Assembly: GCA_001799675.1 (NCBI GenBank)
Contig: MGTX01000022.1
Span: 74,852-109,858, forward strand
DNA: 35,007 bases
Source of the DNA: Elusimicrobia bacterium GWA2_66_18
GTDB taxonomy: Bacteria; Elusimicrobiota; Elusimicrobia; UBA1565; UBA9628
Reading direction: 5' to 3'
Part shown: positions 19,544-35,007 of the stretch, piece by piece
Layout: every line of letters begins with the position of its first letter
How positions within the stretch are numbered: position 1 is the stretch's first letter
Made by a program: the position numbers and the translations under genes
Notes under the pieces: model-generated
The model's database searches: none
The model's input: only the letters and a program-made list of their open reading frames with translations
What the model was told of the DNA's origin: nothing

Positions 19544-21139
19544 GTGCGACCCACCGCTCCCGGCCCGAGACTTGCCCTCATCCAATGCCCAGGCTGGGGG
19601 CGAGAGTGCCCGCCGTACGCCCTGGCTTGCTTGGCGTCCCATGTTCGCCGCGAAGGGCACTCAGCCGCCTGTTTCGATCTCAACAACGAGTTCTATCACG
19701 CCTCTGCGGAGCGCCGGCGCATGTGGGAGGACAAGGATTATTACTCGTTCTGGGAGAGCGAGAGTTCCGTGCGCCGTCTCGTCGCCGAGAACGAGGCGCT
19801 CGTGGATTCCTTCGTCGAGCGCATTCTGGCCGCGGGGACGCGCGTGGCGGGGTTCTCCACGCACACGACCTCATTCCGGGTGAGTCTGGAGCTGGCGCGC
19901 CGCCTCAAGCGGCGCGACCCTTCCGTGCTGGTTCTTTTCGGGGGGCCGCAGTGCTCCCGCGCCCAAGCCGGGCGTCCTTTCGCGGAGGAGCCCTGCGTGG
20001 ATGCGGTCATTATCGGCGAGGGGGAACTCACTCTAACCGAGGTCCTGCGGCGCGCGCGAGACGGCAAACCTCTCGAACCCATGCCCGGACTTCTGATGAG
20101 GCATCAAGGCGTCGTCGTCGACGGCGGAGATCGCGGAGTCATCACCGATCTCGATCGACTGCCGCTGCCCGACTACTCCGACTTTGATGCGGCCATCCGC
20201 GGCGGACTTTACGCCGATCCCGAGAGGCTCGAGATCTTAGACAGTCGCGGCTGCGTTCGGACCTGCCACTTCTGCAGCGAGTGGCAGTTCTGGCGGAGTT
20301 TTCGCGCCATGAGCGGCGAGCGGATGTTCGCGGAGGCGTCGGCCCAGGTCCTGCGCTACCCCCGCGTCAACCGTTTTTACTTCATCGGCTCGCTCGTCAA
20401 CGGCAGCATCGGGTCCTTGGAGCGCTTCTGCGACCTGGTCATCGCCTCGGACCTGCGCATCCGATGGCAGGGTCAGGCCATCGTCAACCCCGCCATGGAC
20501 GATCGCCTGCTGGGCAAGATGGCGCGCGCCGGTTGCGAGTGGCTGGGCTTCGGCATCGAGTCCGGCTCCGAGGACCTGCGCGCGCGCATGAACAAGAAGT
20601 TCACCAACGAGAACGCGTTCGCGACCTTGCGTGCGGCGCATCGAGCCGGCATCCGAGCCCAGATCAACGTCATGTTCGGCCTGCCGACGGAGACGCGCCG
20701 GGACTTCGAGGAGACCCTTCGGTTTCTCGCGCGCGTGCGGCCGCATATTGAAACCGTCCTGGCCAGCCAGTCCTTCGCGGTCATCGACAAGGGCACCGCG
20801 CCGCACGCCCATCCCGAGCGCTTCGGCGTGTCGGACCAGGACCACCACCTGTATTGGACCTCCAACGAAGGGGAGAACGACTACGCGGAGCGCTCCCGCC
20901 GCTACGAGGAGTTCTGCCGCGTCGCCATCGCGCTCGGCGTTCCCGAGGTCTCGGGCGTCCTGCGCGAGAAGCCCGATAAGTGGCGGCTGCTTGGCGAGCA
21001 CGCCCTCTACCGCCGCGATTGGCGCGGCGCGGTGCGCGCCCTGCGCCGCGCCTTGCGCCGCGAGCCGGGCGACGAAGGCTTGCGGGCCGGGCTCGCTCGC
21101 GCGCGCGAGGAACTGCGGCCGGCCGCCGCGGCGGCCTGA
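19544..21139 (+). CDS. B12-binding-domain radical SAM protein 1 (subfamily A)
   Basis: Start GTG 19544 follows the cupin stop by one base; the longer frame upstream is a shadow. The 531-residue product has an N-terminal Rossmann-like B12-binding-type domain (about residues 10-200, with LFGGPQ and IIGEGELTL). The radical SAM core follows with C237, C241 and C244 (GCVRTCHFC) for the 4Fe-4S cluster and GIESGSEDL for SAM binding. The DxHxxG cobalamin ligand motif is absent, so any B12 would bind base-off/His-off, or not at all. The C-terminal 60 residues look TPR-like (YRRDWRGAVRALRRAL). It is a clear paralogue of the protein at 24484 (shared MSGER, NGSI and DHHLYW-type phrases). Reaction unknown. 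Confidence 0.88.
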   Translation: MRPTAPGPRLALIQCPGWGRECPPYALACLASHVRREGHSAACFDLNNEFYHASAERRRMWEDKDYYSFWESESSVRRLVAENEALVDSFVERILAAGTRVAGFSTHTTSFRVSLELARRLKRRDPSVLVLFGGPQCSRAQAGRPFAEEPCVDAVIIGEGELTLTEVLRRARDGKPLEPMPGLLMRHQGVVVDGGDRGVITDLDRLPLPDYSDFDAAIRGGLYADPERLEILDSRGCVRTCHFCSEWQFWRSFRAMSGERMFAEASAQVLRYPRVNRFYFIGSLVNGSIGSLERFCDLVIASDLRIRWQGQAIVNPAMDDRLLGKMARAGCEWLGFGIESGSEDLRARMNKKFTNENAFATLRAAHRAGIRAQINVMFGLPTETRRDFEETLRFLARVRPHIETVLASQSFAVIDKGTAPHAHPERFGVSDQDHHLYWTSNEGENDYAERSRRYEEFCRVAIALGVPEVSGVLREKPDKWRLLGEHALYRRDWRGAVRALRRALRREPGDEGLRAGLARAREELRPAAAAA

Positions 21140-21141
21140 CC

Positions 21142-22356
21142 ATGGAGACCGCGACCGAAGCCCCCGCCGCCCCTCTGGGAAGATTGCCCCGGGAGGAGAG
21201 CGTGGCGCGAAACCTCGCCGAACTTTCGGCGCGCCGTACGGTCCTGACCGCGCCCCCGCGCCTGGTGGCGCTGGGCACGCACAATGCCTGCAACGCCAAG
21301 TGCGTCTTCTGCCTGGAAGGGAAGTATCCGCGCTTCGACCTGCCTCTCTATAGACGCTTCTTCGAAGGCAAGATGGGCCATTTCATCCGACAGGCGGAAA
21401 AGGCGACCTTCACCGGCTTCGGCGAGGTCTTATGGGCGCCCGCCGCCCCGATATTTTTAGACTACCTCAATGAGACCATCCCGGAGACCTGGAAGATCTT
21501 CACGACCAACGGCACGCCCTTGCGTCCGCCGATCATCGAGCGCCTGCTCAAAAGCCGCTACGTGATCCAGCTTTCCCTGCACGCCTCGCGCGCGGACCTC
21601 CACGAGGAGCTCACGCTGTTGCCGGGAGCTTTCGAGCAGATCATCGGGAGCCTGGGGGAACTCTGTCGCCTGCGCCGGGAGCGGGATCTCGGCGACCGCT
21701 TGCATGCGGTGATCGTGGACGTCGTCACTCGCCGAAACGTCGACGACCTGCCGGCCTTAGTCAAGATGGCCTGGGACATGAAAGTCCCGGAACTCCAGTG
21801 CCGGTACGTCACGATGTTCGACCCCGCCCACATCGAGCTGTCCTGCTGGTTGGAGCCGGAGCGCGCCAACGCCGCCATCGACGCCGCCGAACGCGTCCTG
21901 GGGGAGATCCAGGCCCGCGCCGATCCCGAGGAGTTCGCGCACTTCGGCGTGCGCCTGCCCCCGCGTTTCGGCCGTCGGGACTCGGCGCGGGCTGAAAGCG
22001 GGTTTTGCGCCGACCCGTGGGAGATGATCTACGTGGAGGGGCAGGGGCCCGTCCTGCCCTGCTGTCAATGGGGCGCGCACGTGGGCGATCTTGAGAAGGG
22101 CGACGAGATCGAGGCGGTCTGGAACGGGGACTTCTATCGCGCCTTGCGGACGTCCATGGCCTCCGGCCGGCCTCACCCCTGGTGCGCGCATTGCGTGAAG
22201 TTCCGCGGCTACAACGTCGATAGATTGCTCGCCCATCTGACCAACCGTCCGGAGCAGCAGGGGCGCCTGCTCGATGAAATCGCCCGCCGCGGCCTAGCCG
22301 ACGTCTCAGCTTACCGGGCTGAGGTCGAGTCCGCGGGTCAAGCGGCGCCCCGATGA
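21142..22356 (+). CDS. Radical SAM/SPASM protein 1 (subfamily B)
   Basis: ATG 21142 is two bases after the previous stop. The 404-residue product has the CxxxCxxC motif at C50, C54, C57 (HNACNAKCVFC). Downstream are GFGEVLWAP in place of the GGEP-type SAM motif and a C-terminal SPASM-like region (FCADPWEMIYVEGQG, LPCC, WCAHC) that should hold auxiliary iron-sulfur clusters. SPASM proteins modify peptides or enzymes and some small molecules. It is a paralogue of the protein at 26283. It overlaps the next gene by four bases. Confidence 0.85.
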   Translation: METATEAPAAPLGRLPREESVARNLAELSARRTVLTAPPRLVALGTHNACNAKCVFCLEGKYPRFDLPLYRRFFEGKMGHFIRQAEKATFTGFGEVLWAPAAPIFLDYLNETIPETWKIFTTNGTPLRPPIIERLLKSRYVIQLSLHASRADLHEELTLLPGAFEQIIGSLGELCRLRRERDLGDRLHAVIVDVVTRRNVDDLPALVKMAWDMKVPELQCRYVTMFDPAHIELSCWLEPERANAAIDAAERVLGEIQARADPEEFAHFGVRLPPRFGRRDSARAESGFCADPWEMIYVEGQGPVLPCCQWGAHVGDLEKGDEIEAVWNGDFYRALRTSMASGRPHPWCAHCVKFRGYNVDRLLAHLTNRPEQQGRLLDEIARRGLADVSAYRAEVESAGQAAPR

Positions 22357-23549
22357 TCGGCCGCGCCCTGCTGCTCCTGCGCGAGAGCCTGATGCCCGAC
22401 CTGGAGGAGCGCGTCGTCGCCCGTCTGCGCCGGGGCCGGCAATGGCGGAAACTCTTCAACTATCTCCTCGTCGAACTGCAGACCGGCCTGGGGACGCCCC
22501 GGCTGTTCGTCGGCAAGCCCTACTGGCTCACCATCGACCCGACCAACTCCTGTCAGTTGAAGTGCCCGTTCTGTCCGACCGGCGCCGGGCGCGGAGTGCG
22601 CGACAAGGCGACGATGAGCCTCGAGCGCTTCAGGCAGGTGATGGACATCCTGGGCCCGACGTTGATCCACATCGACTTCATGAACTGGGGCGAGCCCCTG
22701 CTCAACAAGGACCTATGGGCGATGGTCGCTCTGGCCAAGCGCGACGGCATCGACACGATGGTCTCGACCAATCTCAATCTGCTGCGCGCAGGCGAGGCCG
22801 ACGCCCTGCTCGACTCGGGGCTCGACCGCCTGGTTCTGTCGATCGACGGGCTCGAGCAGGCGACTTATGAGAGGTACCGCGTGGGGGGAGACTTCGCGGT
22901 CGTCGTCGCGAACTTGAAGACGCTCGTCCGCCGACGCCGAGAACGCGGCCTCGTCAAGCCGAGGATCGCCTGGCAGTTCCTGGCCTTCAAGCACAACGAG
23001 CACGAGGCCGACCGGGTGCGGGCGTTCTCGCTGGGGCTCGGCGTCGACGAGGTCGGCGTCACGCCCGCCTACCTGCCCTTCCGGCCCGGCGTCAAGGATG
23101 AGTGGCTGCCGACGCGCTCCGACCTGCGCCTCTACGATCCGGAGAGCTTCCCGGAGAGCCCTCCCTGGCAGTGGGAGGAGTCGGGGCCCCGAGAGGAGAA
23201 CGGCGCCGCGCCCCAGGTCAAGGTCGAGGTTTATGCGGCCGGGAAGGGGTCCCCGCGGCGGCGATGCAACTGGCCCTGGGCCGGCATCGCGATCAACCCC
23301 GACGGCTCGGTGTCGCCCTGCTGCTCGGTCGAGGAGCAGGAATACGATTTCGGGCGCTTCTTCACGGAGAGCTTCTCTCGACTTTGGAACAACGAGAAAT
23401 ACGCCCAGGCCCGCCGGCACGTCTCGAGCTACGCCGCCGGCCGGACGGAGGCGATCCCCGCATCCAGGCACGCCTGCGAGCGCTGCTTCTCGATCGGGCA
23501 GTCCCGTTTCCAGTTCCCTCACTCATGGCTTTCGGAAGCCGGGGGATGA
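22353..23549 (+). CDS. Radical SAM/SPASM protein 2
   Basis: ATG 22353 overlaps the upstream stop (ATGA). The 398-residue product starts with about 55 basic, amphipathic residues before the core. The cluster motif is C67, C71, C74 (TNSCQLKCPFC), then FMNWGEPLL as the SAM-binding GEP motif. A typical SPASM tail follows (CNWPWAGIAINPDGSVSPCC, HACERC). It is the only member of its subtype in the array and looks closer to widespread MoaA/SPASM enzymes than its neighbours. Substrate unknown. Confidence 0.87.
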   Translation: MIGRALLLLRESLMPDLEERVVARLRRGRQWRKLFNYLLVELQTGLGTPRLFVGKPYWLTIDPTNSCQLKCPFCPTGAGRGVRDKATMSLERFRQVMDILGPTLIHIDFMNWGEPLLNKDLWAMVALAKRDGIDTMVSTNLNLLRAGEADALLDSGLDRLVLSIDGLEQATYERYRVGGDFAVVVANLKTLVRRRRERGLVKPRIAWQFLAFKHNEHEADRVRAFSLGLGVDEVGVTPAYLPFRPGVKDEWLPTRSDLRLYDPESFPESPPWQWEESGPREENGAAPQVKVEVYAAGKGSPRRRCNWPWAGIAINPDGSVSPCCSVEEQEYDFGRFFTESFSRLWNNEKYAQARRHVSSYAAGRTEAIPASRHACERCFSIGQSRFQFPHSWLSEAGG

Positions 23550-24487
23550 TGAAGCTTTCCCGCGCCGAGGGGGATCCTCGCGCCGCCAATCTGGCCTCGC
23601 GCCTGCCGTCTAGGCCCGTGGTCTTCGCTTGGGATCTGCATTACAGCTGCAACTACCGCTGTCCCTACTGTTTCTACAACGAAGCGGGCTGGACGGAACT
23701 GGCCAAGAAGAATCTCTATTTCGAGCCCGCGAAGTGGGAGGCGGTCTGGTCTCGCGTGCATGACCTCTACGGGCGCTGCCAGCTGCGCATCACGGCCGGG
23801 GAGCCCTTCACCTACCCGCGCTTCGACGATCTCCTGGCGCGCGTCTCTCGCCTGCACGACCTCCAGGTCACCACGAACTGTTCCCAGAGCGAAGCGATCC
23901 GGCGCGCGGCCGAGCGCGTCGATCCCGCGACCCTCGAGTTCGACTGCACTTACCATCCGCTCTCGGGGGAATTTGAGCCTTTCGCCGACAACGTGACGCT
24001 CCTGCGCGAGAGGGGCTTTGTGGCCAACGTCTGTTTCCTGGCATACCCTCCTCAGATGGGGCGCATGGCCGAGTATAAGCGCCGCTTCGCCCGACGCGGC
24101 CTTTACATGAATATGGCCATCTTCTGGGGACGTTGGAAGAATTCACAGTATCCCTTCGCCTACACCGACGAGGAACGCCGCGCGATCAAGGAGACGATCG
24201 GCGTCGAGGTCGGACCGGAGACCGTCAACCTGGAGCCCCTTTCGAACCGCGGCAAGCTCTGCGGGGCGGGTCAGCGCTACGCGGTCGCGCAGGGCGACGG
24301 GCGGGTTTTTCGCTGCGGCCAACTCGGACATGAAGGCCAATCCATCGGCAGCCTCTTCGATCCGGCTTTCTGCCTCCGCGAGGCCGCTCTTGCCTGCGAG
24401 GCCGACTACTGTCGCTCCAAGGAGTTCCAGGTCGCCTGGGACGAGACGGACCGGGAGATTCTGCTTCGGGAGAACCGCCTCAAATGA
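23546..24487 (+). CDS. Short radical SAM protein 1 (subfamily C)
   Basis: I take ATG 23546 (4-base overlap); ATG 23525 and 23549 are in frame too. The 313-residue product has C35, C39, C42 (YSCNYRCPYC), W-x3-W-x-R-V spacing, ITAGEPFTYPRF (SAM motif), TTNCS and TYHP. The C-terminal cysteine set is C-x-A-G, DGRVFRCGQ and ACEADYC. Three further genes (27368, 30354, 31259) share this layout, so this is a distinct short family with a twitch-like C-terminal cluster site. It completes the first A-B-C set of the array. Confidence 0.85.
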   Translation: MMKLSRAEGDPRAANLASRLPSRPVVFAWDLHYSCNYRCPYCFYNEAGWTELAKKNLYFEPAKWEAVWSRVHDLYGRCQLRITAGEPFTYPRFDDLLARVSRLHDLQVTTNCSQSEAIRRAAERVDPATLEFDCTYHPLSGEFEPFADNVTLLRERGFVANVCFLAYPPQMGRMAEYKRRFARRGLYMNMAIFWGRWKNSQYPFAYTDEERRAIKETIGVEVGPETVNLEPLSNRGKLCGAGQRYAVAQGDGRVFRCGQLGHEGQSIGSLFDPAFCLREAALACEADYCRSKEFQVAWDETDREILLRENRLK

Positions 24488-26286
24488 CCCGCGCGGCCCT
24501 CGTGCAATGCCCGGTCTGGTGGACCGTGGACCCGCCCTTGGGCCTGGCCCAGATCGCGGGCTGCCTGGGCGCGCGCGGCATCGAGGCCGTGGTCGTGGAT
24601 CTTAACGCGGAGCTCGCGCGCGGGCGAGCGAACGGCTACGAGAGCCTCTGGAATTGGGAGCAGTTCCACTATTGGAACGACCCCGGCTTCGTGAAGCGGG
24701 CCTTCCAAGACAACGCCAAGGTGGTCGACGATGCCCTCGAGCGGGTCCTGCGCAGCGACGCCGCGGTCGTCGGCTTCTCGGTGAATGCGGGCAGCCAGTC
24801 GCCGACCCTGGAGTTCGCGCGGCGCGTCAAGCGCGAGGACCCCCGCCGAGCGGTCGTGCTTGGAGGCCAGTACTTCTTCCGCGGCGGCGCCGCGGCGCGG
24901 TTGGCGGACGACCCGGCCGTCGATGCGGTTCTGCGCGGTCCCGGCGACGAGATCTTCGCGCTCCTCGTCGAGGAGCATGTCCGGACCGGTCGGATATCTC
25001 CGCGCCCGGGCGTCGTCGCCCGCGTCGACGGTTCGGTCGTCGACGGCGGGGCGGCCAAGGCGCTGCGCGACCTCGACGGCCTGCCCTTCGCCGACTTCCG
25101 AGGTTTCCGCCTCGAGCTCTACGATGTGCCCGAACGCCTGCCCATCCACATGAGTCGCGGCTGCGTCTGGCAGTGCCGCTTCTGCTCCTCCCGCTCGTTC
25201 TGGCCCGGCTACTCCTTCATGAGCGGCGAGCGCGTCCATGCCGAAATCCTGGAGCACAAGCGCCGACACCCGGAGAAGACTCATTTCGAGTTTTACGACC
25301 TTACGGCCAACGGCAGCATCCAGAGCCTGCGCCGATTGGCCGAGTCTATCGCGTCGGACTGGAAGGAGAACCGCGAGAAAAACTTCTTCGGCTGGAAGAT
25401 CAACGCGATCCTTCGGCCCGAGATGGACGCCGGCCTCCTCGGCCTCCTGGCGAGGGCCAACTGCCACGACGTGATCTACGGCGTCGAGAGCGGCTCGCCG
25501 CGCGTGCTTAAGCTCATGAACAAGCCCTACGAGATCGCCGCGGCCGAGCGCGTCTTGGCCGACACCAAGCGGGCACGCATCGCCACGGTCGGCAACTTCA
25601 TGTTCGGCTTCCCCGGCGAGACCGAGGAGGACTTCCAGCTCACTCTCGACTTCCTGCGCCGCAATCGCGCCTCCTTCGACCGGGTTTACGCCAGCGCCAC
25701 CTTCACCAGCCTGGAGGCGGATGCGTGGCTCTCCGAGCACCGGACCGAGGCCGGGATCAAGGATGACGGGCCCGAGGCGCACCACCTCTACTGGGAGTCG
25801 GCGGACGGGACCAACACCTACCCCATGCGCCTGGCGCGCTACGAGCGCTTCCGCGCGCTTGCGGTTGAACTCGGCCTGGACGCCTACAAGGGGATCAACG
25901 GAAGCCTGGAACTGGAGCGACACGCGGGCCTGGCGGCCTACCACCATTACCGCGGCGACCACCCGGAGGCCGTGCGAGAGCTGCTCGACTGCCTCGACTT
26001 GGACTTCCGGCACCCGGCCTTTCGTGAGGAGCTCGCGGCATACGCCCGCGACCTCGCCCTCCTGCGCCGCGCCCTGAAGGCGGCCGCCAAGGCCGCGGCC
26101 GGGAGGGACGGCCCGTGGCGATCGCGGGCCGAGTCCGCGCTCGAGGCCATGCGCGAGCGCGCCAGGATCCAGTCCGGGCCCGAGGGGCTGCGGCTGCGCT
26201 GGGGCCGCGCCGAACCTCAACTCAAGGAAATCGAGATATTGGCTCGCCGCGCCGCCCAATGGATGAGTTCTGTATGCGCGAGATGA
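24484..26286 (+). CDS. B12-binding-domain radical SAM protein 2 (subfamily A)
   Basis: The 600-residue product starts with a 4-base overlap. The B12-binding-like domain (about 4-200) contains VLGGQYF but no DxHxxG. The radical SAM motif is C227, C231, C234 (GCVWQCRFC), followed by SFMSGERVHAE, GVESGSPRVLKLMNKP and FGFPGETEEDF. About 130 residues after the core form a helical, TPR-like extension with an Ala-rich tail. It is a paralogue of the protein at 19544 and again sits first in an A-B-C series. Reaction unknown. Confidence 0.88.
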   Translation: MTRAALVQCPVWWTVDPPLGLAQIAGCLGARGIEAVVVDLNAELARGRANGYESLWNWEQFHYWNDPGFVKRAFQDNAKVVDDALERVLRSDAAVVGFSVNAGSQSPTLEFARRVKREDPRRAVVLGGQYFFRGGAAARLADDPAVDAVLRGPGDEIFALLVEEHVRTGRISPRPGVVARVDGSVVDGGAAKALRDLDGLPFADFRGFRLELYDVPERLPIHMSRGCVWQCRFCSSRSFWPGYSFMSGERVHAEILEHKRRHPEKTHFEFYDLTANGSIQSLRRLAESIASDWKENREKNFFGWKINAILRPEMDAGLLGLLARANCHDVIYGVESGSPRVLKLMNKPYEIAAAERVLADTKRARIATVGNFMFGFPGETEEDFQLTLDFLRRNRASFDRVYASATFTSLEADAWLSEHRTEAGIKDDGPEAHHLYWESADGTNTYPMRLARYERFRALAVELGLDAYKGINGSLELERHAGLAAYHHYRGDHPEAVRELLDCLDLDFRHPAFREELAAYARDLALLRRALKAAAKAAAGRDGPWRSRAESALEAMRERARIQSGPEGLRLRWGRAEPQLKEIEILARRAAQWMSSVCAR

Positions 26287-27371
26287 AAACAGAGGAGCAG
26301 AAGGCGAACCTCGCGCTCAACGTCCGCGAGCACGATGAAAAACGCATCGTCCTCTCGAGCACGCCGCGTCGCGTCTTCCTCCAGATCAACGCGGCGTGCA
26401 ACGCGGACTGCGTGTTCTGCTCCAAGGGCTACGATTACCCGACCTTTTCCTTCGACGATTACCTCAAGGCCGTGGGGCCTCGTCTCAACCGCGTGCTCTC
26501 CCAGGCGGAAGAGCTCATTCTCACCGGCTCGGGCGAATTCCTTGGGCTTCCCGACGCCGAGCGCATCCTGGCTTACTTCAATCGCGAGTTCCCGCACGTG
26601 GACAAGTACATCGCCACCAACGCCTCGCACGCGCGCCCGCGGGTATGGGAACTCATCACGGGCGGGGAGAGCCGCTACACCCTCCAACTCTCCCTGCACT
26701 CGGCGGACCCCGAGTCGCATAAGGCCATGATGCGCTACGGCGCCTGGGAGCAGGTCCAGCGCAACATCCGCTTCCTTGCCGAGCGCCGCAAGGTGATGGG
26801 CAACCCGCGGCTCAAGGCCATGTTCGTCATGACCACGCTCAACGCCGAGCTCCTGCCCGAGTTCGTGCGCTGGGCCGCGGGCGTGGGCGTGGACGAGGTC
26901 ATCGCGGGCTATTTCTACATCTACGAGTCCCAGCAGAAGTATCTGTCGCTGTACTTCAAGCAGGGCCTCGCCAACCGCGTCATCGACGAGGCCCGCAAGA
27001 CCGCGGACGAACTTGGCGTGACCCTGCGCCTGCCGCCGAAGTTCGGCGGCTCGCCTCCCGGCTGGGTCAAGCCCTCCTCCTGCCCCGAGCCCTGGCACCA
27101 GATCATGATCAACGCCGACGGGCGGGTCCTGCCCTGCGACGTGTACGGCGATTTCGACGAGAGCTTGGCGGGACGCTCCTTCGACGAGGTCTGGAACGGC
27201 CCCGGCTACCGCGCCGTGCGATGCTCCCTGCGCGCCGGCGCAGGCTGCCTGGAAACCTGTCCTCGCCAGAACGCAGCTGCCGTCAACGACTGGAGCGCGC
27301 ACGTCATCCACCGCCGCAAGGACCCCGCTCAGATCGTCAAGGAGCGCCACGAGGCGCTGAGAAAGCCGTGA
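26283..27371 (+). CDS. Radical SAM/SPASM protein 3 (subfamily B)
   Basis: ATG 26283 makes the 4-base overlap seen along the array; ATG 26259 and 26274 are in-frame alternatives. The 362-residue product has C39, C43, C46 (AACNADCVFC), then LTGSGEFLG in place of the GGEP motif and LQLSLHSADPESH. The SPASM-like tail includes SCPEPWHQIMINADGRVLPC and GCLETCPRQ. It is a paralogue of the protein at 21142 (same N-x-ACNA core, same DEVWNG phrase), shorter at the N-terminus. Confidence 0.85.
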   Translation: MKTEEQKANLALNVREHDEKRIVLSSTPRRVFLQINAACNADCVFCSKGYDYPTFSFDDYLKAVGPRLNRVLSQAEELILTGSGEFLGLPDAERILAYFNREFPHVDKYIATNASHARPRVWELITGGESRYTLQLSLHSADPESHKAMMRYGAWEQVQRNIRFLAERRKVMGNPRLKAMFVMTTLNAELLPEFVRWAAGVGVDEVIAGYFYIYESQQKYLSLYFKQGLANRVIDEARKTADELGVTLRLPPKFGGSPPGWVKPSSCPEPWHQIMINADGRVLPCDVYGDFDESLAGRSFDEVWNGPGYRAVRCSLRAGAGCLETCPRQNAAAVNDWSAHVIHRRKDPAQIVKERHEALRKP

Positions 27372-28237
27372 CCCAAGACCCCGAGATCCGCGTCACCTGG
27401 AACATCCACTGGAGCTGCAACTACCGCTGCAGCTACTGCCTCTTCGACGGGCATTGGACCGATTACGGCAAACGCAACGCCTACCTGACTCCCGATGAGT
27501 GGCTGGTCCATTGGAAGCGACTGCATGAACGCCATGGCCGCGCCTATGTCGTCATCAACGGAGGCGAGCCTTTCGCCTATCCCCGGTTCGTGACGTTATT
27601 GACCGAGGTCTCACGGATGCATTGGCCGATCAACGTGACCACGAACGGCTCGCTGCACCTCGACGACTACCTTCGCCATGTCGATCACTCGAAGGTCTCT
27701 CTGTCTTTGAGCTTCCATCCCCAGTACCACACGGTCCAAGAGTTCCTTACGATCGTGCGCAAGGTCCGCGAGGGCGGCGTCCAGCTTGGTTGTCTTAATT
27801 TCGTGGCCTGGCCGCCCATGCTGGCCGACCTTCCCGCGGTTCTGGAAGCCTTCAAGGCCTCCGGAGAAAGCCTGAAGGTGATCCCTTTCATCGGTCAGTG
27901 GCGCGAAGCGCGCTATCCGGACGCCTACTCGCCCGACGAGAAGGCCCTGCTCGGCATGACCGCCGGCGAGCCCGGGGAGAAGGACTGGCTTGCCGGCAAG
28001 CGTCGCAAGGGAATGCTCTGCCGCGCCGGTCACCGCTCCGCCTTGTTGCTGCCCGACGGGAAGGTCACACGCTGCGGCCAGATCGGCGACCCCGGCATCT
28101 TCTCGGATTTCCTCGCGGACGGCTTCCGCCTCCTCGACGCTCCGGCCCCGTGCGGCGTCGAGCTCTGCCCCTGCGACGAGTGGAAGGTCATTCCCGATGA
28201 GAAAACCCCGGATCAAGCCGGGGCCTGGCTGCCATGA
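27368..28237 (+). CDS. Short radical SAM protein 2 (subfamily C)
   Basis: Start GTG 27368 overlaps the upstream stop (GTGA). The 289-residue product has C17, C21, C24 (WSCNYRCSYC), INGGEPFAYPRF, VTTNGS, SFHPQYHT, and the C-terminal set LCRAGHRSALLLPDGKVTRCGQ ... LCPCDEW. Its last residues (about PDEKTPDQAGAWLP) are encoded across a REP-like palindrome at 28206-28223, so the natural C-terminus may have been altered. It overlaps the broken gene that follows by four bases. Confidence 0.85.
   Translation: MTQDPEIRVTWNIHWSCNYRCSYCLFDGHWTDYGKRNAYLTPDEWLVHWKRLHERHGRAYVVINGGEPFAYPRFVTLLTEVSRMHWPINVTTNGSLHLDDYLRHVDHSKVSLSLSFHPQYHTVQEFLTIVRKVREGGVQLGCLNFVAWPPMLADLPAVLEAFKASGESLKVIPFIGQWREARYPDAYSPDEKALLGMTAGEPGEKDWLAGKRRKGMLCRAGHRSALLLPDGKVTRCGQIGDPGIFSDFLADGFRLLDAPAPCGVELCPCDEWKVIPDEKTPDQAGAWLP
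28206..28223. repeat. REP-like palindrome CCCCGG-N6-CCGGGG
   Basis: A perfect 6-base-pair inverted repeat with loop ATCAAG. The sequence CCCCGGATCAAGCCGGGG resembles dispersed palindromic units found between genes in several bacterial groups. Here it lies in the last codons of a radical SAM gene and just ahead of a frame-broken gene. No second copy was noticed in the window. Confidence 0.5.
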
Positions 28238-28841
28238 GCTTCCTGCGCCGCGCCGCGGCGGGAGCGCTCACGGCGTTCGGCGTCTTCCTCCCCCGGCGGA
28301 ACGTGAACGCGCCTTCGAGGTCAATCTCCGGGAGATGGCTCTCTTGGCCCATCAGGCGGGCGCGAAGATCGCGTTCTGCGCCCTTCCCGCCAACCTGCGC
28401 GACTCCGTCCCGACAACGGGGGCCTCTCTGCCCTGGGACCAGCCGGATTTCTTCTCGGCCTGGACCGCCTGGGAGGAGGAAGACGCCGCTCGCGCGGTTC
28501 GGCTGTTCGCCGCGCGCGTCGCCTCCGTTCCCGGGGACCCGCACGCGCATTACTGGCTGGCGCGGGCTCTGGATATGGTGGGACGCACGCGCGAGGCGGC
28601 GCGCTCCTATTCCCGCGCGGCCGACCTTGACCGGCCGGGCGAGAGGACCAGTCCGGCGCGCGCCGGGATCGTGCGCCGTGTGGCCCGCGAAAGTGATGCG
28701 ATCCTCGTGGATCTTGCCGCAGCCTTCTCCGCGCGATCCCCTTTGGGGACGACGGACGGGACGCTGATGCGAGACGCTTGCCATTGGCGCCATGCCTACG
28801 ACCCTTGGGTGGCGGACCTCAGTGGGAGTGGAGGGATATGA
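28234..28841 (+). pseudogene. Frame-broken SGNH-hydrolase/TPR-type gene
   Basis: The coupled start ATG 28234 opens a frame that begins like a membrane anchor (MSFLRRAAAGALTAFGVFLP). It then turns into Arg/Pro/Ser-rich nonsense. From about 28296 the sensible protein continues in another frame: ERAFEVNLREMALLAHQAGAK, ALPANLRDSVP, a TPR pair (HAHYWLARALDMVGR) and DACHWRHAYDPWVADL. That last phrase resembles the Asp-x-x-His block of SGNH hydrolases. One additional C in the C5 run at 28290-28294 would join the frames into about 202 residues. Even then the N-terminal GDS nucleophile block is missing, so the protein is also truncated. Both ends keep 4-base overlaps with neighbours. Sequencing error, recent mutation or frameshifting are all possible. 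Confidence 0.6.
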
Positions 28842-29305
28842 TCCATTCGGGGCTTGCCAAAGCCTGCTATGCGCCCGCCGACCTGTTCCATGAGGAGGCC
28901 TTGACGCTGATCCGGCGCGCGCGCCGGGAGGATCCCGCGCGATTCGCGCGGGCGGTTTCCTCCGCCCGCGCCTTGTCTGAGACCGTGTACAGGGACCATC
29001 CCGAAGGCGACTGCGCGCGGCGTCAGGAGCCGTTGTGGTCGCACATCTCGGAGGCCATGCGTCGCGAGGGCCGCCCGCGCGAGGCGGAGCAGGCGGCCGC
29101 CCGGGCGCTGGCCGCCTCCCCAGGCTCCTATCGCGCTCGCCTCGCCGCGGCTCTGTCGGCGGGCGGCGCCGGGCGGGCCGACGAGGCCGCCGACCGTCTT
29201 GAGGAACTGCGGACACGCCGTCCGGACCGCCGCGAGGCGAGGTTGTGGGCCGCTTACTGGCGGGCGAAGGCGGGTCCCGCGCGCGCGGAGAGGGCCGCCC
29301 GGTGA
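28838..29305 (+). CDS. Small TPR-like helical protein
   Basis: ATG 28838 overlaps the stop of the preceding frame by four bases. The 155-residue product is Ala/Arg-rich and helical. Two stretches look like TPR units (REAEQAAARALAASPGSYRARLAAAL; DEAADRLEELRTRRPDRREARLWAAYW, each about 27 residues). There is no signal peptide or catalytic motif. It could be a scaffold for the array's enzymes or the remaining tail of the broken gene upstream. It couples to the methyltransferase by GTGA. Confidence 0.6.
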   Translation: MIHSGLAKACYAPADLFHEEALTLIRRARREDPARFARAVSSARALSETVYRDHPEGDCARRQEPLWSHISEAMRREGRPREAEQAAARALAASPGSYRARLAAALSAGGAGRADEAADRLEELRTRRPDRREARLWAAYWRAKAGPARAERAAR

Positions 29306-30357
29306 CGACGACGCGCGGCTGCGCGGCCGACGTACGGCGGGTGATCGACCGGCTGCTGGGCGATCCCGAACACCGGCAGAAATGGGGCACGGTCGCGGGC
29401 GAGGACGGCAGATTCCTCGAGATGTGCATCGGGATGATTGGAGCGAAGAACGTCCTGGAAGTCGGGGCCGGAACGGGCCTTTCGTCTCTTTACATGGGCC
29501 TGGGACTCCTCAAGACCGGGGGGAAGCTGACGACCATCGAGTTTGATGCGGAGCGTCTGCGTCGCGCGAAGGCGAACCTGGAGGAAGCCGGGCTTTCGCA
29601 GACCGTCGATTTGATGGGAAAAGACGCGTGGGATGTCCTTCCCCGCCTCCAAGGGACTTTCGACATGGTCTTCTTGGACGCCGTCAAGATCGACGCCATC
29701 CATTATTTGGACATGATCTTTCCCCGAGTCAGGCGGGGCGGGGTCATCCTGGCCCACGATGTGAATTGGGGGCATGACAACACCGAGAATTGCAAGATGC
29801 GGGATTATCTGGACGCGCTGAAGGCCCATCCTTGCCTGGAGACGGTTTTGGTGTCCGATGAGAGCTTTAACTTGCAAGGGATCACGGGAGCGGGCATGGC
29901 CCTGAGCCATAAGAGCTGCGTTCATGGAGAGTGTCCCGTTCGTCCCGGTCGAAAGCTGGCGAGGCTCCCGGCCGGCCGGGGATTCGCTCCCGGCGACCAA
30001 CTCGGCCACATCGTCTTGGAAAAGCACGTCGACGATTATGGAAACCTCGGCTATTGCCTTCTGCTCGATCGATCATGCACGAAGCAAGAGGTCATCGGAC
30101 TGTGCGAGCAATATTTTCTTCGCCATCATCAGCAATCGACTCTGTCGGTCCATCTTTACACTTCCAGGGAGGCTTTCGACCGCAGAAATGATCTAAGCTC
30201 TCCGCCCGAACGATACTTCGAGCATCTCGTCGCCCAGTGTTATCGGCACCCCCGCGCCCCTTATGATGAAATCCGATACTATCGAGACTCCCAGATCCTC
30301 CTCTTCGAGAAGGGCCCTGCGCCGGACCCGGAGATGAAAAGGGAGGCGGTGTCTTGA
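29302..30357 (+). CDS. SAM-dependent O-methyltransferase-like protein with extra C-terminal domain
   Basis: Start GTG 29302 overlaps the previous stop. Of 351 residues, the first 215 or so are a class I methyltransferase of the catechol-O-methyltransferase-like type. Motif I is VLEVGAGTGLSS (about 51-62), then TIEFDAERL, and FDMVFLDAVK, where the Asp usually helps bind a metal. RGGVILAHDVNW follows. The last 130 residues form a separate domain I do not recognise (LGYCLLLDRSC, STLSVHLYTSREAF, DSQILLFEKG). The DNA for that part (around 30050-30260) is visibly less GC-rich than its surroundings, suggesting a separate origin. Confidence 0.75.
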   Translation: MTTTRGCAADVRRVIDRLLGDPEHRQKWGTVAGEDGRFLEMCIGMIGAKNVLEVGAGTGLSSLYMGLGLLKTGGKLTTIEFDAERLRRAKANLEEAGLSQTVDLMGKDAWDVLPRLQGTFDMVFLDAVKIDAIHYLDMIFPRVRRGGVILAHDVNWGHDNTENCKMRDYLDALKAHPCLETVLVSDESFNLQGITGAGMALSHKSCVHGECPVRPGRKLARLPAGRGFAPGDQLGHIVLEKHVDDYGNLGYCLLLDRSCTKQEVIGLCEQYFLRHHQQSTLSVHLYTSREAFDRRNDLSSPPERYFEHLVAQCYRHPRAPYDEIRYYRDSQILLFEKGPAPDPEMKREAVS

Positions 30358-31262
30358 GCGGCATCGACGCGCGTCCCGGGCTCGAGTTCCTCTGGTTCGT
30401 GCAGGATCTCTGTAATTACAAGTGTCCCTATTGCTTCGTTTCCGGCCAAAGACGCGAGGCCCGGCCGTGGCTGGTCAACACGCGCCCGACCGCGCCGTGG
30501 GTCGAGGCCTGGGATCGGGTCGCCGACCTCTACGGCCCGGCTTGGATACGCTTGACCGGCGGCGAGCCGACGCGCCTGCCCGGCTTCCTGGGCCTCATCG
30601 GGGCGATGACGCGGCGCCACTCGGTCTCCTTCGACACCAACATGTCGTGGAGCCGCGATGAAATCCGGCGCTTCGCCGAACTGGTGCCGAACGACCGCAC
30701 CACGGTCGATGTCAGCCTCCATCCGAGCGAGGGATACATGAGCGAGGTTCTGGCCAAGTGCGTCATGCTCAAGGAGCGCGGCTACAAGCTGATCGCCCGA
30801 CTCGTCGGCTACCCGCCTCTGTTGGACCAGGCGTCGCGCCTACGTTCTCTCTTCGGGGGGGCGGGGCTGCGCTTCATCGTCAACCCATACCAGGGGGAGT
30901 GGCAGGGGCGGGAATATCCGCGCGATTACACCGCCGCGGAGCGTCGCACGATCGAATGCGCGAGCACCGCGCTCGATCCGGCTCTCGCCGAGGATCGCGA
31001 ACAAGTCGAGATTGCCGCCCATATCCTGCGCATGCACGAAGAGTCCCCGCGCGGCCGGCTCTGCCGCAGCGGCTCTCTGTACGCCCGCGTGATGCACGAC
31101 GGCTCGGTCTACCGTTGTCAGCCTTACGAGAGCCGAGGCTGGGAGACTCTCGGCAATCTGCTCGACGCCGATTTCCGGCTGCGCGGGGCCTCCACGCCTT
31201 GCCGCTCGGATTTGTGCGAGTTTGAGTACAAGTATCTGGCCGCGACGGAGACGGTCCGATGA
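30354..31262 (+). CDS. Short radical SAM protein 3 (subfamily C)
   Basis: Start TTG 30354 gives the 4-base TTGA overlap. The 302-residue product has C20, C24, C27 (DLCNYKCPYC), LTGGEPTRLPGF, FDTNMS and SLHPSEGY. The C-terminal cysteine pattern is LCRSGSLY, DGSVYRCQ, PCRSDLCEFEYKYL. It diverges most from the other three family members in the SAM-binding region (RLP for YPR). It belongs with the next gene as a tandem pair. Confidence 0.85.
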   Translation: MSGIDARPGLEFLWFVQDLCNYKCPYCFVSGQRREARPWLVNTRPTAPWVEAWDRVADLYGPAWIRLTGGEPTRLPGFLGLIGAMTRRHSVSFDTNMSWSRDEIRRFAELVPNDRTTVDVSLHPSEGYMSEVLAKCVMLKERGYKLIARLVGYPPLLDQASRLRSLFGGAGLRFIVNPYQGEWQGREYPRDYTAAERRTIECASTALDPALAEDREQVEIAAHILRMHEESPRGRLCRSGSLYARVMHDGSVYRCQPYESRGWETLGNLLDADFRLRGASTPCRSDLCEFEYKYLAATETVR

Positions 31263-32161
31263 CGCGCGAGTGGTGGCTGGACGAGCACGCGCCGACCTTC
31301 ACCTGGGACCTTTGGTACGGCTGCAACTACCGCTGTTCCTACTGCTGGTGGGAGATGGGGGACCTCTGGGAGGAGCTGGCGCGCAGCCATCGCCTGCTGG
31401 CGCCCGAGGATTGGGCCGCGGCCTGGACCCGCGTGCGCGACCGCCACGGTGCGGCGCGCATCGACGTGCTGGGCGGCGAGCCTCTGGCCTATCCGCGGGC
31501 CGGGGAGGTCTTTGAGGCGCTCTCGAAGCTCCACCGCCTCGTCATCACCACCAACCTCTCGCCGCAGCCCGAGAAGCTGGATCTGCTCGCCTCATGTTTA
31601 TCTCCCGAGCTCGTGCATTTCAGCGCGAGCTTCCATCCCGAGTTCACGAAGATCGATGCGTTCATGGGAAGGCTCTCGCTTCTGCGCGCGCGGGGATTTC
31701 GCCCGGCGGTGCTGTTCGTGACCTGGCCGCCGCTGCTGCCGCGCTTGGCGGAGTACCGCGGCGTCTTCCAGGACGCCGGCTATCCCTTCAGCGCGATGGT
31801 GTTCCAGGGCGAGTTCTCCGGTCTCCTCTATCCTGACGCCTACACGCCGCAGGAGCGAGCCCTCATCGCAGGCGAGATCGGAGGGGAGCCGGCGCAAAAG
31901 GAGGCGGAGCGCGATTACCGCCTCGATGTCCGAGCCACGCTGGGCAAGCCCTGCCACGCGGGGCGGGTCTACGCGAACGTGAAAGCCGACGGTAGGATCT
32001 TCCGTTGCGGTCAGGACGCCTTCGGCCGCAAGCCCATGGGAAACCTCTTCGACGAAGGCTTCCGCCTCCACGACGAGCCTCGTCCGTGCCCGTACGAGCG
32101 ATGTAGCTGCCTGGAGTTCAAGTACCTCGACGAACTGCGCGTTCCGGAGGCTTCCCGATGA
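31259..32161 (+). CDS. Short radical SAM protein 4 (subfamily C)
   Basis: ATG 31259 overlaps the upstream stop. The 300-residue product has C22, C26, C29 (YGCNYRCSYC) followed by two tryptophans, LGGEPLAYPRA, TTNLS, SFHPEFTK and WPPLLPRL. The C-terminal set is PCHAGRVY, DGRIFRCGQD, PCPYERCSCLEFKYL, with one extra cysteine. The shared EF/EYKYL ending and adjacency suggest it and the preceding gene arose by tandem duplication. Confidence 0.85.
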   Translation: MTREWWLDEHAPTFTWDLWYGCNYRCSYCWWEMGDLWEELARSHRLLAPEDWAAAWTRVRDRHGAARIDVLGGEPLAYPRAGEVFEALSKLHRLVITTNLSPQPEKLDLLASCLSPELVHFSASFHPEFTKIDAFMGRLSLLRARGFRPAVLFVTWPPLLPRLAEYRGVFQDAGYPFSAMVFQGEFSGLLYPDAYTPQERALIAGEIGGEPAQKEAERDYRLDVRATLGKPCHAGRVYANVKADGRIFRCGQDAFGRKPMGNLFDEGFRLHDEPRPCPYERCSCLEFKYLDELRVPEASR

Positions 32162-32547
32162 GCGCGCCTGAGCGGCGGGAGACGACGTCCGCGGCCCTGG
32201 GGCGTCCGGCCGGCGAGGGCGGCCTGCTCATCGAGCGCGGGGGGCTGGTCGTCTATATAGATCCAAACGGCGCTTGCGAAGGACTGCCGAAGGCCGACAT
32301 CGTCTGCGTGAGCGCCGTCGACCCGCGCCGGGCGCCGGAGACGGGGGTGCGCGCGGTCTCGATGCCGACGACGATCATCGCGGGACTGCCGCAGTGCGTC
32401 TCGCGATTCCGCCTCAACCAATTGCCGCTCCTTCACGGGCAGTCGCGCACGGCCCTGGGTCTGGAGCTCTTCTTGTCGGGCGACGACGGGACGACGGTCC
32501 GCTGGCGGCTGCGCTGGTCAGACTTGGACGTCATGCATCCCATATGA
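32158..32547 (+). CDS. Small protein, possibly a truncated metallo-beta-lactamase-fold remnant
   Basis: The 129-residue product is coupled on both sides by 4-base overlaps. The phrase GGLLIERGGLVVYIDPNG...LPKADIVCVSAVDP has the layout of the first strands of UlaG-like metallo-beta-lactamase-fold proteins ('i.DP...lpkaDlIlvTH.H.DH'). The HxHxDH metal ligands are missing and the protein is too short. It may be a degenerate non-enzymatic relative or an unrelated small protein. Its preserved coupling argues that it is expressed. Confidence 0.55.
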   Translation: MSAPERRETTSAALGRPAGEGGLLIERGGLVVYIDPNGACEGLPKADIVCVSAVDPRRAPETGVRAVSMPTTIIAGLPQCVSRFRLNQLPLLHGQSRTALGLELFLSGDDGTTVRWRLRWSDLDVMHPI

Positions 32548-34115
32548 AGCGGCGATATTGGAGACCGGTGGATTGGACGCATGCCGCGCCCCTGGCGGCG
32601 CTGGTGGCCGCTCATGCCACGGTTCAGTCCTATCTCCTGCTCCAGAGCGGAGGGCTTGCCGGGTTCTCCGCCGACAGCGCCGACCGAATCATCCTTGCGT
32701 TTATATGGGGCGGTCATCCGACCTTCTTCATCCAGCCGTCGGCCTGGCTGCCGGTTTTCTTCTGGATTTACGGGACGCTGCTGCGGTTCTGGCTCGATCC
32801 GCTTTGGGCGCCGATCGTGTTCACCGTGGTCTTGAGCAACCTGTCCCTGTTGGCTCTCTACGGGATATGCCGGAGGATCGGCGGCGGGAGGGAGGGCAGC
32901 CTATTGGCGGCCGCCGCCGCGGGCTTTATGCCTCTCTCGCTCCAGGTCAGCGGGCAGCCCTACTTCGACCCTCTCTTCATTCTCATCCTTCTTTGCGCCA
33001 TCCATGCCTGGCTGCGCTCGGAGGGGGGGCGGCGGCGCGGGTGGCATTTGGCGTCCGCCGCGGCCATGGCCGCGGCCGCGCTGACGCGGTTCGAGGGCTG
33101 GCTGTTCGTCGCCGCCTGGCTTGCGCTGACGCGGAGGCGGCCGGGGCTGCGCCTGCGCTTGCTGGCGCTTGCGCCGATCGCGCTTTATCTCCTCCATGAG
33201 GTCGCCGCATACGGCGGGTTCGAGTTCCTCAGGCTCCAGCGCGACCGCGGGCTCGTGAGCGTGCCGCCCCTGGACTGGCGTGTCCTGGACGCTCTGTGGA
33301 CCAAGGTCTTCGCCGATGGGCTGCTGCTCCCCTTCATCCTTGCGGCGTTTCCCGCTCTGGACTTCAGACGGGCCGAGGTGCGCGAGACGCTCGGCCTGGT
33401 CTGGCTTCCTTTCCTGGCGTTCATCGGCATGACCCAGTTTCTAGGATTCCCGCTGCCCTTCGAGCACTTGGCCCCGTTTCTCGCCCTCCAGATGATTCCC
33501 CTCGCCCCGGCCCTGGACCGGGCGCTGGAGGCATGGAGCTCTTCTCTGCGCGCCTGGGCCGCGGACTGGGACCGGCCCGCGAGGTTGGCTCTGGCCTTGG
33601 TCCTCATCCTTGGCGTAACGGTTGGGGCGATGATGAGAACCTGTCAGCCGCCTTGCTCGCGCGCGCCGATAGGCTTTGTAAAAGAACTCGGTCAGAAATT
33701 GAAGCCGGGCGAGCGCTTCCTCCTGGAGCTTCCGCTCGTCGGCTCTCATAACCAGGACGCCGACGAAAGATTTGAAGACCCGCGGATGCTGCAGCTTGCG
33801 GCCTTGCCGACAGAGATGGAGTTTGACCGCATCTTCAGATACCGGCACGGCTCGACGGATGACTTCTTCACCTTGGACACCGCCGATCCTTCCGTCCTGG
33901 AGCTTCCGGAGGCCGAGCTCGGAAGGGAGCTCAAGCGCCTCTCCGTGCGCCTGATCCTGGCTCGCCGCGAGCACAAGAAGCTCGAGAGGCTGGGCTGGCG
34001 ACCGGCCGGCGAGCTGCGGCATTACCTATTCTATGCGCGCGCCGAGGACAGGCTCTATCCCCTGCTGAGGAGCGGGATGGAGCCTCATGGGGGGCGGCCC
34101 GGAAGAAAGACATGA
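32544..34115 (+). CDS. Polytopic GT-C glycosyltransferase-like membrane protein
   Basis: ATG 32544 overlaps the previous stop. The 523-residue product has about ten hydrophobic helices. An early acidic loop (SADSADRI, residues about 42-49) sits where GT-C enzymes keep their catalytic acidic residue, and there is an LTRFEGWLF segment. About 150 soluble residues follow at the C-terminus. This fits ArnT/PMT-like enzymes that use polyprenyl-phosphate sugars, though motifs are weak. Embedded in the radical SAM array, it suggests a lipid- or glycan-linked step on the outer face of the membrane. Confidence 0.65.
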   Translation: MKRRYWRPVDWTHAAPLAALVAAHATVQSYLLLQSGGLAGFSADSADRIILAFIWGGHPTFFIQPSAWLPVFFWIYGTLLRFWLDPLWAPIVFTVVLSNLSLLALYGICRRIGGGREGSLLAAAAAGFMPLSLQVSGQPYFDPLFILILLCAIHAWLRSEGGRRRGWHLASAAAMAAAALTRFEGWLFVAAWLALTRRRPGLRLRLLALAPIALYLLHEVAAYGGFEFLRLQRDRGLVSVPPLDWRVLDALWTKVFADGLLLPFILAAFPALDFRRAEVRETLGLVWLPFLAFIGMTQFLGFPLPFEHLAPFLALQMIPLAPALDRALEAWSSSLRAWAADWDRPARLALALVLILGVTVGAMMRTCQPPCSRAPIGFVKELGQKLKPGERFLLELPLVGSHNQDADERFEDPRMLQLAALPTEMEFDRIFRYRHGSTDDFFTLDTADPSVLELPEAELGRELKRLSVRLILARREHKKLERLGWRPAGELRHYLFYARAEDRLYPLLRSGMEPHGGRPGRKT

Positions 34116-35007
34116 AGTCGATCGTCTTCATCAATCCTCCGATGACTCTCGAAGCCCGCTACGGAGGCTTGGCGCGGGCCGGGGCCATGGAGCCCCCTTT
34201 CGGACTCTGCTCCCTGGCCGCGGTGACGCGGCGGCAGGGTTACGAAACTCGCATCATCGACGCCGAGACCCTCGGACTGTCGGCCGACCAGGCGGCGCGG
34301 GAGGCTCTGGCCTGCAAGCCGGACTGCATCGGTCTGACCGCGACGACTCCCGCCGTCGACAGCGCGGCCCGCGTGGCCGAAAGGATCAAGGAGGCCGAGC
34401 CTTCGGTTCCGATAATTATTGGGGGCTGCCACGTCACGGCCATCCCGGAGGAGACGCTGCAAAGCTTCCCGGCTTTCGACCTGGCGCTGGTCGGCGAGGG
34501 CGAGGTCACGATCCTGGAGCTTCTGCGCGGACTCGATCAGGGGACAAGCCTCGATCGCGTCGCGGGCCTCGCCTTTCGCAGAGGGAACGGCGTCGTCCGC
34601 ACTCCGCCCCGCCCGCTGATCAAGGATCTGGACTCCATCCCCATGCCCGCCTTCGATTTACTGCCTCCGCTCGAGCGTCATTACAGCGTGACCGCGCAGA
34701 GCGTCGACCGGTTTCCGGCGGTTTCGCTGCTCACCTCCCGCGGCTGCTACGCGCGCTGCGCCTTCTGCGACACCAATGTCACGGGCAACACGATGCGCGC
34801 GCACGGCGCGGCTTATGTCGCGCGCATGATGAGACTCGTCAAAGAGCGCTACGGCATCCGCAGCGTGATGTTCGAGGACGACAATTTTCTGGCGTTGCGC
34901 AAGCGTCTTAAGGAGCTGAAGCTTCTTCTCCAGGAGGAGCGGCTCGACATGACCTGGTCCTGCACCTCCCGCGTCGACATCGCCGACGGCGAGACTCTGA
35001 GGCTCGC
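34112..35007 (+). CDS. B12-binding-domain radical SAM protein 3, 3' end outside window
   Basis: ATG 34112 overlaps the preceding stop by four bases and the frame is open to the right edge (298 codons visible). The start (KSIVFINPPM) and EPPFGLCSLAAVTRRQGYETRIID are classic for B12-binding radical SAM proteins. Next come IIIGGCHVTAIPEE and LVGEGEVTILELL, then C212, C216, C219 (GCYARCAFC) and FEDDNF. It is closer to the common BchE-like class than the two subfamily A proteins. A cobalamin-ligating DxHxxG is not evident. The array therefore continues beyond this window. Confidence 0.88.
   Translation, partial: MKSIVFINPPMTLEARYGGLARAGAMEPPFGLCSLAAVTRRQGYETRIIDAETLGLSADQAAREALACKPDCIGLTATTPAVDSAARVAERIKEAEPSVPIIIGGCHVTAIPEETLQSFPAFDLALVGEGEVTILELLRGLDQGTSLDRVAGLAFRRGNGVVRTPPRPLIKDLDSIPMPAFDLLPPLERHYSVTAQSVDRFPAVSLLTSRGCYARCAFCDTNVTGNTMRAHGAAYVARMMRLVKERYGIRSVMFEDDNFLALRKRLKELKLLLQEERLDMTWSCTSRVDIADGETLRL

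Follow-up and report, generated by a model that had tools for sequence, protein, structure and literature searches.

Dense array of radical SAM genes in Elusimicrobia bacterium GWA2_66_18: a candidate tailoring system for a cell-surface glycan

What might a bacterium build with ten radical S-adenosylmethionine (SAM) genes placed one behind another? The question is raised by a stretch of 35,007 nucleotides from Elusimicrobia bacterium GWA2_66_18 (the window: bases 74852-109858 of contig MGTX01000022.1, or C22; genome of 2.79 Mb, assembly 94.7% complete), in which ten such genes lie on the plus strand from position 19544 to beyond the window end. As a rule, radical SAM enzymes act alone or a few together, and their substrates are small molecules, peptides or cofactors. 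The array is read here, with moderate confidence, as a patchily kept operon that would encode a multi-step radical SAM tailoring system for a cell-surface glycan. The features from which this reading starts are observed directly: the gene content, the overlaps between genes, a gene order found in two phyla, fusions between glycosyltransferase and radical SAM domains, the adjacency of an exporter in Omnitrophota, and purifying selection.

Composition and layout of the array

The genes are labelled A to Q, with coordinates in window numbering. Gene calls were made by a custom script; some high-GC regions were miscalled, for example A, B and C of genome G051, which were placed by tblastn.

A, 19544-21139, plus strand: B12-binding radical SAM protein, 531 amino acids (aa), GTG start, CxxxCxxC at residue 237; core (Pfam B12-binding and Radical_SAM)
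B, 21142-22356, plus strand: radical SAM/SPASM protein, 404 aa; core (Pfam, relatives)
C, 22353-23549, plus strand: radical SAM/SPASM protein, 398 aa; core (Pfam, relatives)
D, 23546-24487, plus strand: short radical SAM protein, 313 aa, weakly STM4011-like; core (Pfam, NCBIfam)
E, 24484-26286, plus strand: B12-binding radical SAM protein, 600 aa, paralogue of A; core (Pfam)
F, 26259-27371, plus strand: radical SAM/SPASM protein, 370 aa, paralogue of B; core (Pfam)
G, 27368-28237, plus strand: short radical SAM protein, 289 aa, paralogue of D; core (Pfam)
H, 28234-29305, plus strand: remnant of an SGNH-hydrolase/TPR gene, pieces in three frames (comparison with sister genome G004)
I, 29302-30357, plus strand: O-methyltransferase, Methyltransf_3 (Pfam; start inferred from the sister)
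J, 30354-31262, plus strand: short radical SAM protein, 302 aa; accessory (Pfam, NCBIfam)
K, 31259-32161, plus strand: short radical SAM protein, 300 aa; accessory, in several Elusimicrobiota loci (Pfam, NCBIfam)
L, 32158-32547, plus strand: 129-aa protein of no assigned family, kept beside radical SAM genes in some relatives
M, 32568-34115, plus strand: GT-C type membrane glycosyltransferase, PMT_2 (Pfam)
N, 34112-35007 and on to ~35419, plus strand: B12-binding radical SAM protein, HpnJ/BchE-like (Pfam, NCBIfam)
O, P and Q, after N, past the window, to ~37937: glycosyltransferase family 2 (GT2)-methyltransferase, YdjC protein and PqqD protein (Pfam)

The CxxxCxxC motif and a Pfam Radical_SAM match were found in all ten radical SAM proteins, eight of the matches being above the cut-off of 29.5 bits. 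The two below it are B (19.4 bits), which also has a SPASM match, and D (28.7 bits), which reaches 30.4 bits with its neighbours in the genome search. A B12-binding Pfam domain above cut-off lies N-terminal to the radical SAM domain in A, E and N (for A, the Pfam scan covers residue 60 onward and the NCBIfam scan the full length), and a SPASM domain above the Pfam cut-off is present in B, C and F. The short proteins D, G, J and K are without a Pfam SPASM match; in this family four cysteines beyond the radical SAM motif are invariant (13/13 aligned sequences), so that an auxiliary cluster is probable in them as well. Between A and Q there are 16 junctions, ten of them 4-nt overlaps, and the widest space left between two array genes measures 20 nt. 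A first-pass annotation made from the letters alone had described ten closely coupled radical SAM genes on one strand, three B12-binding, three SPASM-like and four short; the motif, the domain matches and the junctions all agree with it.

The run continues past the window to ~37937 with the rest of N and with O, P and Q, an extension of the locus that the annotation had proposed to look for. A short run of N bases interrupts gene N just outside the window. Q matches the PqqD model with 59.8 bits (cut-off 23.4), and two glycosyltransferase genes, encoding one GT2 and one family 4 (GT4) protein, lie beside the array at 37954-41372. The GTG start of A at 19544 fits complete relatives, which align up to that point; the longest open reading frame of I opens at 29245, and the sister points to a start at 29302.

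The genome contains 62 Radical_SAM matches (E <= 0.001), which gives 0.35 expected per 15.9 kb against the ten seen (Poisson P(>=10) ~6e-12); since radical SAM genes cluster in general anyway, this figure excludes chance alone. Two further dense radical SAM clusters occur in this genome, on contigs C25 (4.8-18.6 kb) and C16 (39-110 kb). On C16, three Oxidored_nitro (nitrogenase component-1-like) proteins surround a double radical SAM/SPASM protein (L009:741-8192, minus strand), with GDSL/TPR and carbamoyltransferase genes near. Two proteins of ~1175 aa joining ferredoxin-like, carbamoyltransferase and radical SAM domains are encoded on the minus strand at L005:1317-4826 and L008:4505-8047.

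A and E share 39% identity, B and F 31%, and D, G, J and K 27-37% among themselves. Taken with the order A-B-C-D / E-F-G, these identities make the core A to G look like an old duplication of a B12-binding radical SAM/SPASM/short radical SAM unit, to which C would have been added.

Conservation, maintenance and borders

Genome contigs were scanned for A using two short patterns derived from Elusimicrobiota sequences; 55 stretches matched and 27 loci were confirmed by alignment. These belong to Elusimicrobia/Elusimicrobiales (12), Omnitrophota/Omnitrophica (12) and Candidatus Gygaella (1, Omnitrophota), the remaining two (L049 and L051) being on the same contigs as those of G036 and G032, members of the window's family; given the Elusimicrobiota origin of the patterns, the restriction of A to two phyla holds for that scan alone. 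Of 340 genomes searched in the phylum, 26 have E or a close paralogue (E <= 1e-80).

Gene order is kept in both phyla. B directly follows A in 12 of the 13 testable Elusimicrobiota loci besides the window (the exception, in G070, reads A-C-B), and C follows A in 12/12 testable Omnitrophota loci, B being upstream there. Several Elusimicrobiota have B fused to A, several Omnitrophota have C fused to A, and in some Omnitrophota B is fused to a glycosyltransferase-radical SAM protein (described below). A conserved protein of ~244 aa is encoded between B and C in seven Elusimicrobiota loci (e.g. L036:6786-7520); it falls into one group with beta-helix proteins from neighbouring loci and itself has no Pfam match above cut-off. 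A relative of I adjoins an E'-like gene (E' being the third B12-binding radical SAM gene of the sister genome, see below) in one Omnitrophota locus.

Phylogenies were produced as quick trees of BLAST segments, with branch support from the Shimodaira-Hasegawa-like approximate likelihood ratio test (SH-aLRT); some branches are long (N, and copies in G025 and G022). In the tree of B12-binding radical SAM proteins, A forms a clade of 29 rows (support 98), of which 13 are Omnitrophota (99) and 16 are Elusimicrobiota (97). The E group, of 24 rows (97), has both phyla inside. As the A and E groups each span both phyla, their duplication would predate the spread of the array over Elusimicrobiota and Omnitrophota. 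Trees of B (82), C (100), F (96) and G (100) each contain one group per phylum, L067 falling outside the split in F; the D tree is less clear (94, with extra copies mixed in), and cross-phylum support is weaker for B too. The comparison of sequences and gene order thus has A to G conserved together in two phyla; a neighbourhood search had been suggested by the first-pass annotation, and the genes did not prove to map to unrelated, separately conserved clusters. Still larger arrays were found in G028 (20 CxxxCxxC motifs in ~33 kb) and G101 (17 in ~27 kb, ended by the contig), these tallies being motif counts, not Pfam counts.

Of the 19 genomes of the genus, only that of the window and its sister G004 have close orthologues of A and E (18 other members searched; E at E <= 1e-80). 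In G004 the array lies on two contigs, A-B-C-D-E-F and G-H-E'-I-J-K-L-Q, which presumably join. A third B12-binding radical SAM gene, E', follows H there and is absent from the window; between L and Q the window has M, N, O and P, and in G004 Q directly follows L. The ratio of non-synonymous to synonymous substitution rates (dN/dS) against the sister was 0.16-0.25 in 12/12 shared genes tested. The array is therefore under purifying selection and maintained by it.

Two genes that the annotation had counted among the members were rejected. The first, a cupin, precedes A:

Cupin, 19081-19542: directly after the ATP-synthase epsilon gene

The genus has it in 15 of its 19 genomes. It stands side by side with epsilon in 10 of the 14 other fetched loci and has A behind it in none (the other four, L091, L093, L095 and L103, were unreadable by the gene caller), and it belongs with ATP-synthase epsilon in these other members. 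The second is H, listed as a TPR protein. Its counterpart in G004 is intact (566 aa), and the window copy, without most of the N-terminal part, is a broken remnant of an SGNH/TPR gene.

Glycan context and proposed pathway

The clue to the substrate comes mainly from relatives. The Omnitrophota gene that precedes A, or precedes B where B stands separately, combines GT4 and radical SAM domains in one protein in 11/11 loci that hold it (L057, L059, L060, L061, L062, L063, L064, L066, L067, L070 and L073); of the 13 Omnitrophota loci, L058 and L072 end before this gene. The fusion protein measures up to 2163 aa, several copies being cut by contig ends, and GT2 domains precede the GT4-radical SAM part in most (as a separate gene in L063; in L057 the sequence breaks off before reaching them). 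Directly before the fusion gene, the three long loci (L061, L063 and L067) all carry Wzm, an ABC-2 membrane protein, and Wzt with a Wzt_C domain, with a flavin adenine dinucleotide (FAD) amine-oxidase-like gene slightly further upstream. Genes for WecA-like protein, O-antigen ligase, ManC (mannose-1-phosphate guanylyltransferase), WecG and PMT were found in one or other of two sampled loci (G101, G107). Downstream of the array of G107 (Omnitrophota; L080, L067 and L081 joined), the region 56976-59477 holds a gene for a 78-aa peptide with a Cys/Ser/Gly-rich stretch near a radical SAM gene, which by eye looks like a gene for a ribosomally synthesised and post-translationally modified peptide (RiPP).

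In Elusimicrobiota, this same upstream radical SAM component lies within ~7 kb 5' of A in 14 of 16 loci, as its own gene or fused to A, the two loci without it being those of the window and G004. A GT4 gene lies in that interval in 9 of the 16 loci (Pfam-based in two); G026 and G030, where no GT4 was seen, have less than 1 kb of sequence upstream of A. In the window's own genome the glycan-type neighbours are M (GT-C), O (GT2-methyltransferase), P (YdjC) and the glycosyltransferases at 37954-41372.

The fusion of glycosyltransferase and radical SAM domains, the conserved order and the exporter together make a surface glycan the likeliest target. The first-pass annotation had cautiously proposed a pathway of biosynthesis or modification in which many steps are radical reactions; that much stands, and the glycan context, being visible mainly in relatives, had escaped it.

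Known systems were compared with the array. Loci of the Wzm/Wzt O-antigen type are similar in that the Omnitrophota have Wzm, Wzt with Wzt_C, and GT2 and GT4 domains, and in that WecA-like, O-antigen ligase or ManC genes occur in the sampled Omnitrophota loci; they differ in that no such exporter was found in the window genome, and to our knowledge the known loci of this type are neither dominated by radical SAM genes nor endowed with radical SAM domains fused to glycosyltransferases. By profile or fold, the closest solved structures to A, B, C or D include radical SAM enzymes of aminoglycoside, nucleoside and deoxysugar pathways (BtrN, SpeY, DesII, BlsE, AprD4, OxsB), albeit with low identity (~10-21% in fold matches). 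Such pathways use one to a few radical SAM genes and release free small molecules.

Comparison with the NCBIfam models placed all ten radical SAM proteins far below the curated cut-off of every model matched, in line with the annotation, which could match no characterised gene. For the short proteins the best model was NF038073 (STM4011), at 65.7 (D), 59.3 (G), 54.3 (J) and 72.1 (K) bits, where the cut-off is 200. Profile searches of solved structures returned OxsB, TokK and AprD4 among the matches of A, BtrN first for B/F, and BtrN followed by BlsE for C; BtrN is matched by its C-terminal part only. With predicted models (pLDDT, the predicted local distance difference test score, of 87 for B and 82 for D), the top Foldseek match was DesII for B and BlsE for D. 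BtrN, BlsE and DesII are enzymes that we take to act on sugars, aminocyclitols or sugar nucleosides. The matches lean towards sugar or aminocyclitol chemistry without deciding for it; with template modelling (TM) scores of ~0.5 and a mixture of sugar and peptide enzymes, the fold matches support it weakly.

We infer a sugar substrate, each type of reaction and the route out of the cell from these data, as follows. Glycosyltransferases would build a sugar chain or lipid-linked oligosaccharide, and the conserved radical SAM set (A, E; B, C, F; D, G) would alter the sugar or its acceptor by radical chemistry: the B12-binding enzymes may perform C-methylation or rearrangement, and the SPASM-type enzymes oxidation, epimerisation, deamination or linking. 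Variation from species to species could come from the accessory radical SAM proteins (J, K, N; E' in the sister), the O-methyltransferase, the GT-C enzyme and the YdjC protein. In Omnitrophota the product would probably leave through the Wzm/Wzt ATP-binding cassette (ABC) transporter; in the window genome this export step may have been lost or replaced.

Several observations weigh against this reading. Gene neighbourhood is no proof of substrate, and the counts of neighbouring glycosyltransferases cover the array loci alone, without a control set of other radical SAM genes. The exporter is unevenly distributed: a search of 29 genomes gave Wzt_C in 11, made up of 9 of the 13 Omnitrophota but just 2 of the 16 Elusimicrobiota, where its nearness to the array is not established. 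G076 has a Wzm/Wzt-like pair ~8 kb upstream of A, and G028 and G037 each have one ~40 kb downstream; none of the three includes Wzt_C. In the window genome (searched at 94.7% completeness) there was no match to ABC2_membrane or Wzt_C; the upstream SPASM radical SAM gene was not found (best match 40% over 80 residues), nor was a close GT4 (best 32% over part), and the O-antigen-ligase matches sit on other contigs. The inference there thus rests on the GT-C, GT2-methyltransferase and YdjC neighbours. Peptide chemistry also has its traces, in that TIGR03975 (rSAM_ocin_1, a RiPP C-methyltransferase family) is the best model for A (143.5 bits) and E (120.8 bits; cut-off 281.85); SkfB, a peptide enzyme, is the first sequence-profile match of the short family and of the upstream radical SAM protein; peptide enzymes come close behind in the fold searches of B and D; and Q, which directly follows L in the sister, is PqqD-like and under purifying selection, the PqqD family being tied to peptide modification.

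Alternative readings and significance

These traces lead to the alternative that survives best, although it is considered unlikely: a RiPP pathway, in which a ribosomal peptide would be recognised by Q and modified by the radical SAM enzymes, the sugars being mere decoration (a glycopeptide) or a neighbouring function. Besides the position of Q near L in the sister too, similar genes occur near A in G076, L065 and L068, and the RiPP B12-binding radical SAM methyltransferase models TIGR03975 and NF050148 (ApyD) are the best named models for A and E. However, A and E reach about half the TIGR03975 cut-off or less, the array is without a precursor peptide gene and its narrow gaps leave no room for one (precursors elsewhere were not searched for), and Pfam reported no PqqD domain in the ten radical SAM proteins. 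Moreover, no Q-like match was obtained in the 13 Omnitrophota loci, which carry glycosyltransferase-radical SAM fusions instead.

A membrane-lipid pathway (hopanoid, ladderane or tether-like lipid), with B12-binding radical SAM enzymes joining or methylating hydrocarbon chains, is held to be improbable. N scores best with the HpnJ (hopanoid, TIGR03471) and BchE models, a ladderane-type model weakly matches A, E and N, and C weakly matches tetraether synthase, but all scores are far below the cut-offs (147.2 bits against 577.6 for N with HpnJ, the gene being interrupted by the run of N bases). N is absent from the interval between L and Q in the sister, and among the proteins scanned, which sample the neighbours, there were no isoprenoid or fatty-acid genes.

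Little probability is likewise given to the idea that the array of the window genome is a decaying remnant without present function. H is broken, E' is missing relative to the sister, and the upstream glycosyltransferase/radical SAM module and the exporter are absent; against this, the other shared genes are open and all those tested evolve under the constraint reported above.

Radical SAM-rich nitrogenase-like loci in groundwater Elusimicrobia were reportedly described by Meheust and colleagues in 2020, and the C16 locus, from the same phylum and with many radical SAM genes, looks similar; a metal-cofactor or nitrogenase-like cofactor pathway is nevertheless very improbable for the array, because such a locus, when looked for, was found on C16 only among the contigs examined, is separate, and has other radical SAM proteins that match A-K only weakly, at the superfamily level, and because Oxidored_nitro was absent from the 20 proteins scanned from 17186 to ~37937 and from the sample scanned in or beside A-type loci.

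Tailoring of a surface glycan is thus retained as the preferred reading. A more specific form of it is put forward tentatively: a radical SAM assembly line tethered to glycosyltransferases, in which up to ~20 radical enzymes would act in series on one lipid-linked or exported glycan and give C-methylated, rearranged or C-linked sugars of unknown kind, conserved in Elusimicrobiota and Omnitrophota and varied by swaps of accessory radical SAM genes. In those parts of the openly licensed literature that were consulted, no publication was found that describes this locus or a glycan locus dominated by radical SAM genes with glycosyltransferase-radical SAM fusions. A glycan locus with tailoring enzymes is in itself of a known kind.

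If this reading is true, two largely uncultured phyla would build their cell surface with radical chemistry, using a conserved set of seven enzymes, up to 20 motifs per locus and the fusion of a neighbouring radical SAM member to glycosyltransferases. A large set of uncharacterised sugar-modifying enzymes would thereby be opened, and the envelope chemistry of these bacteria would become directly testable.

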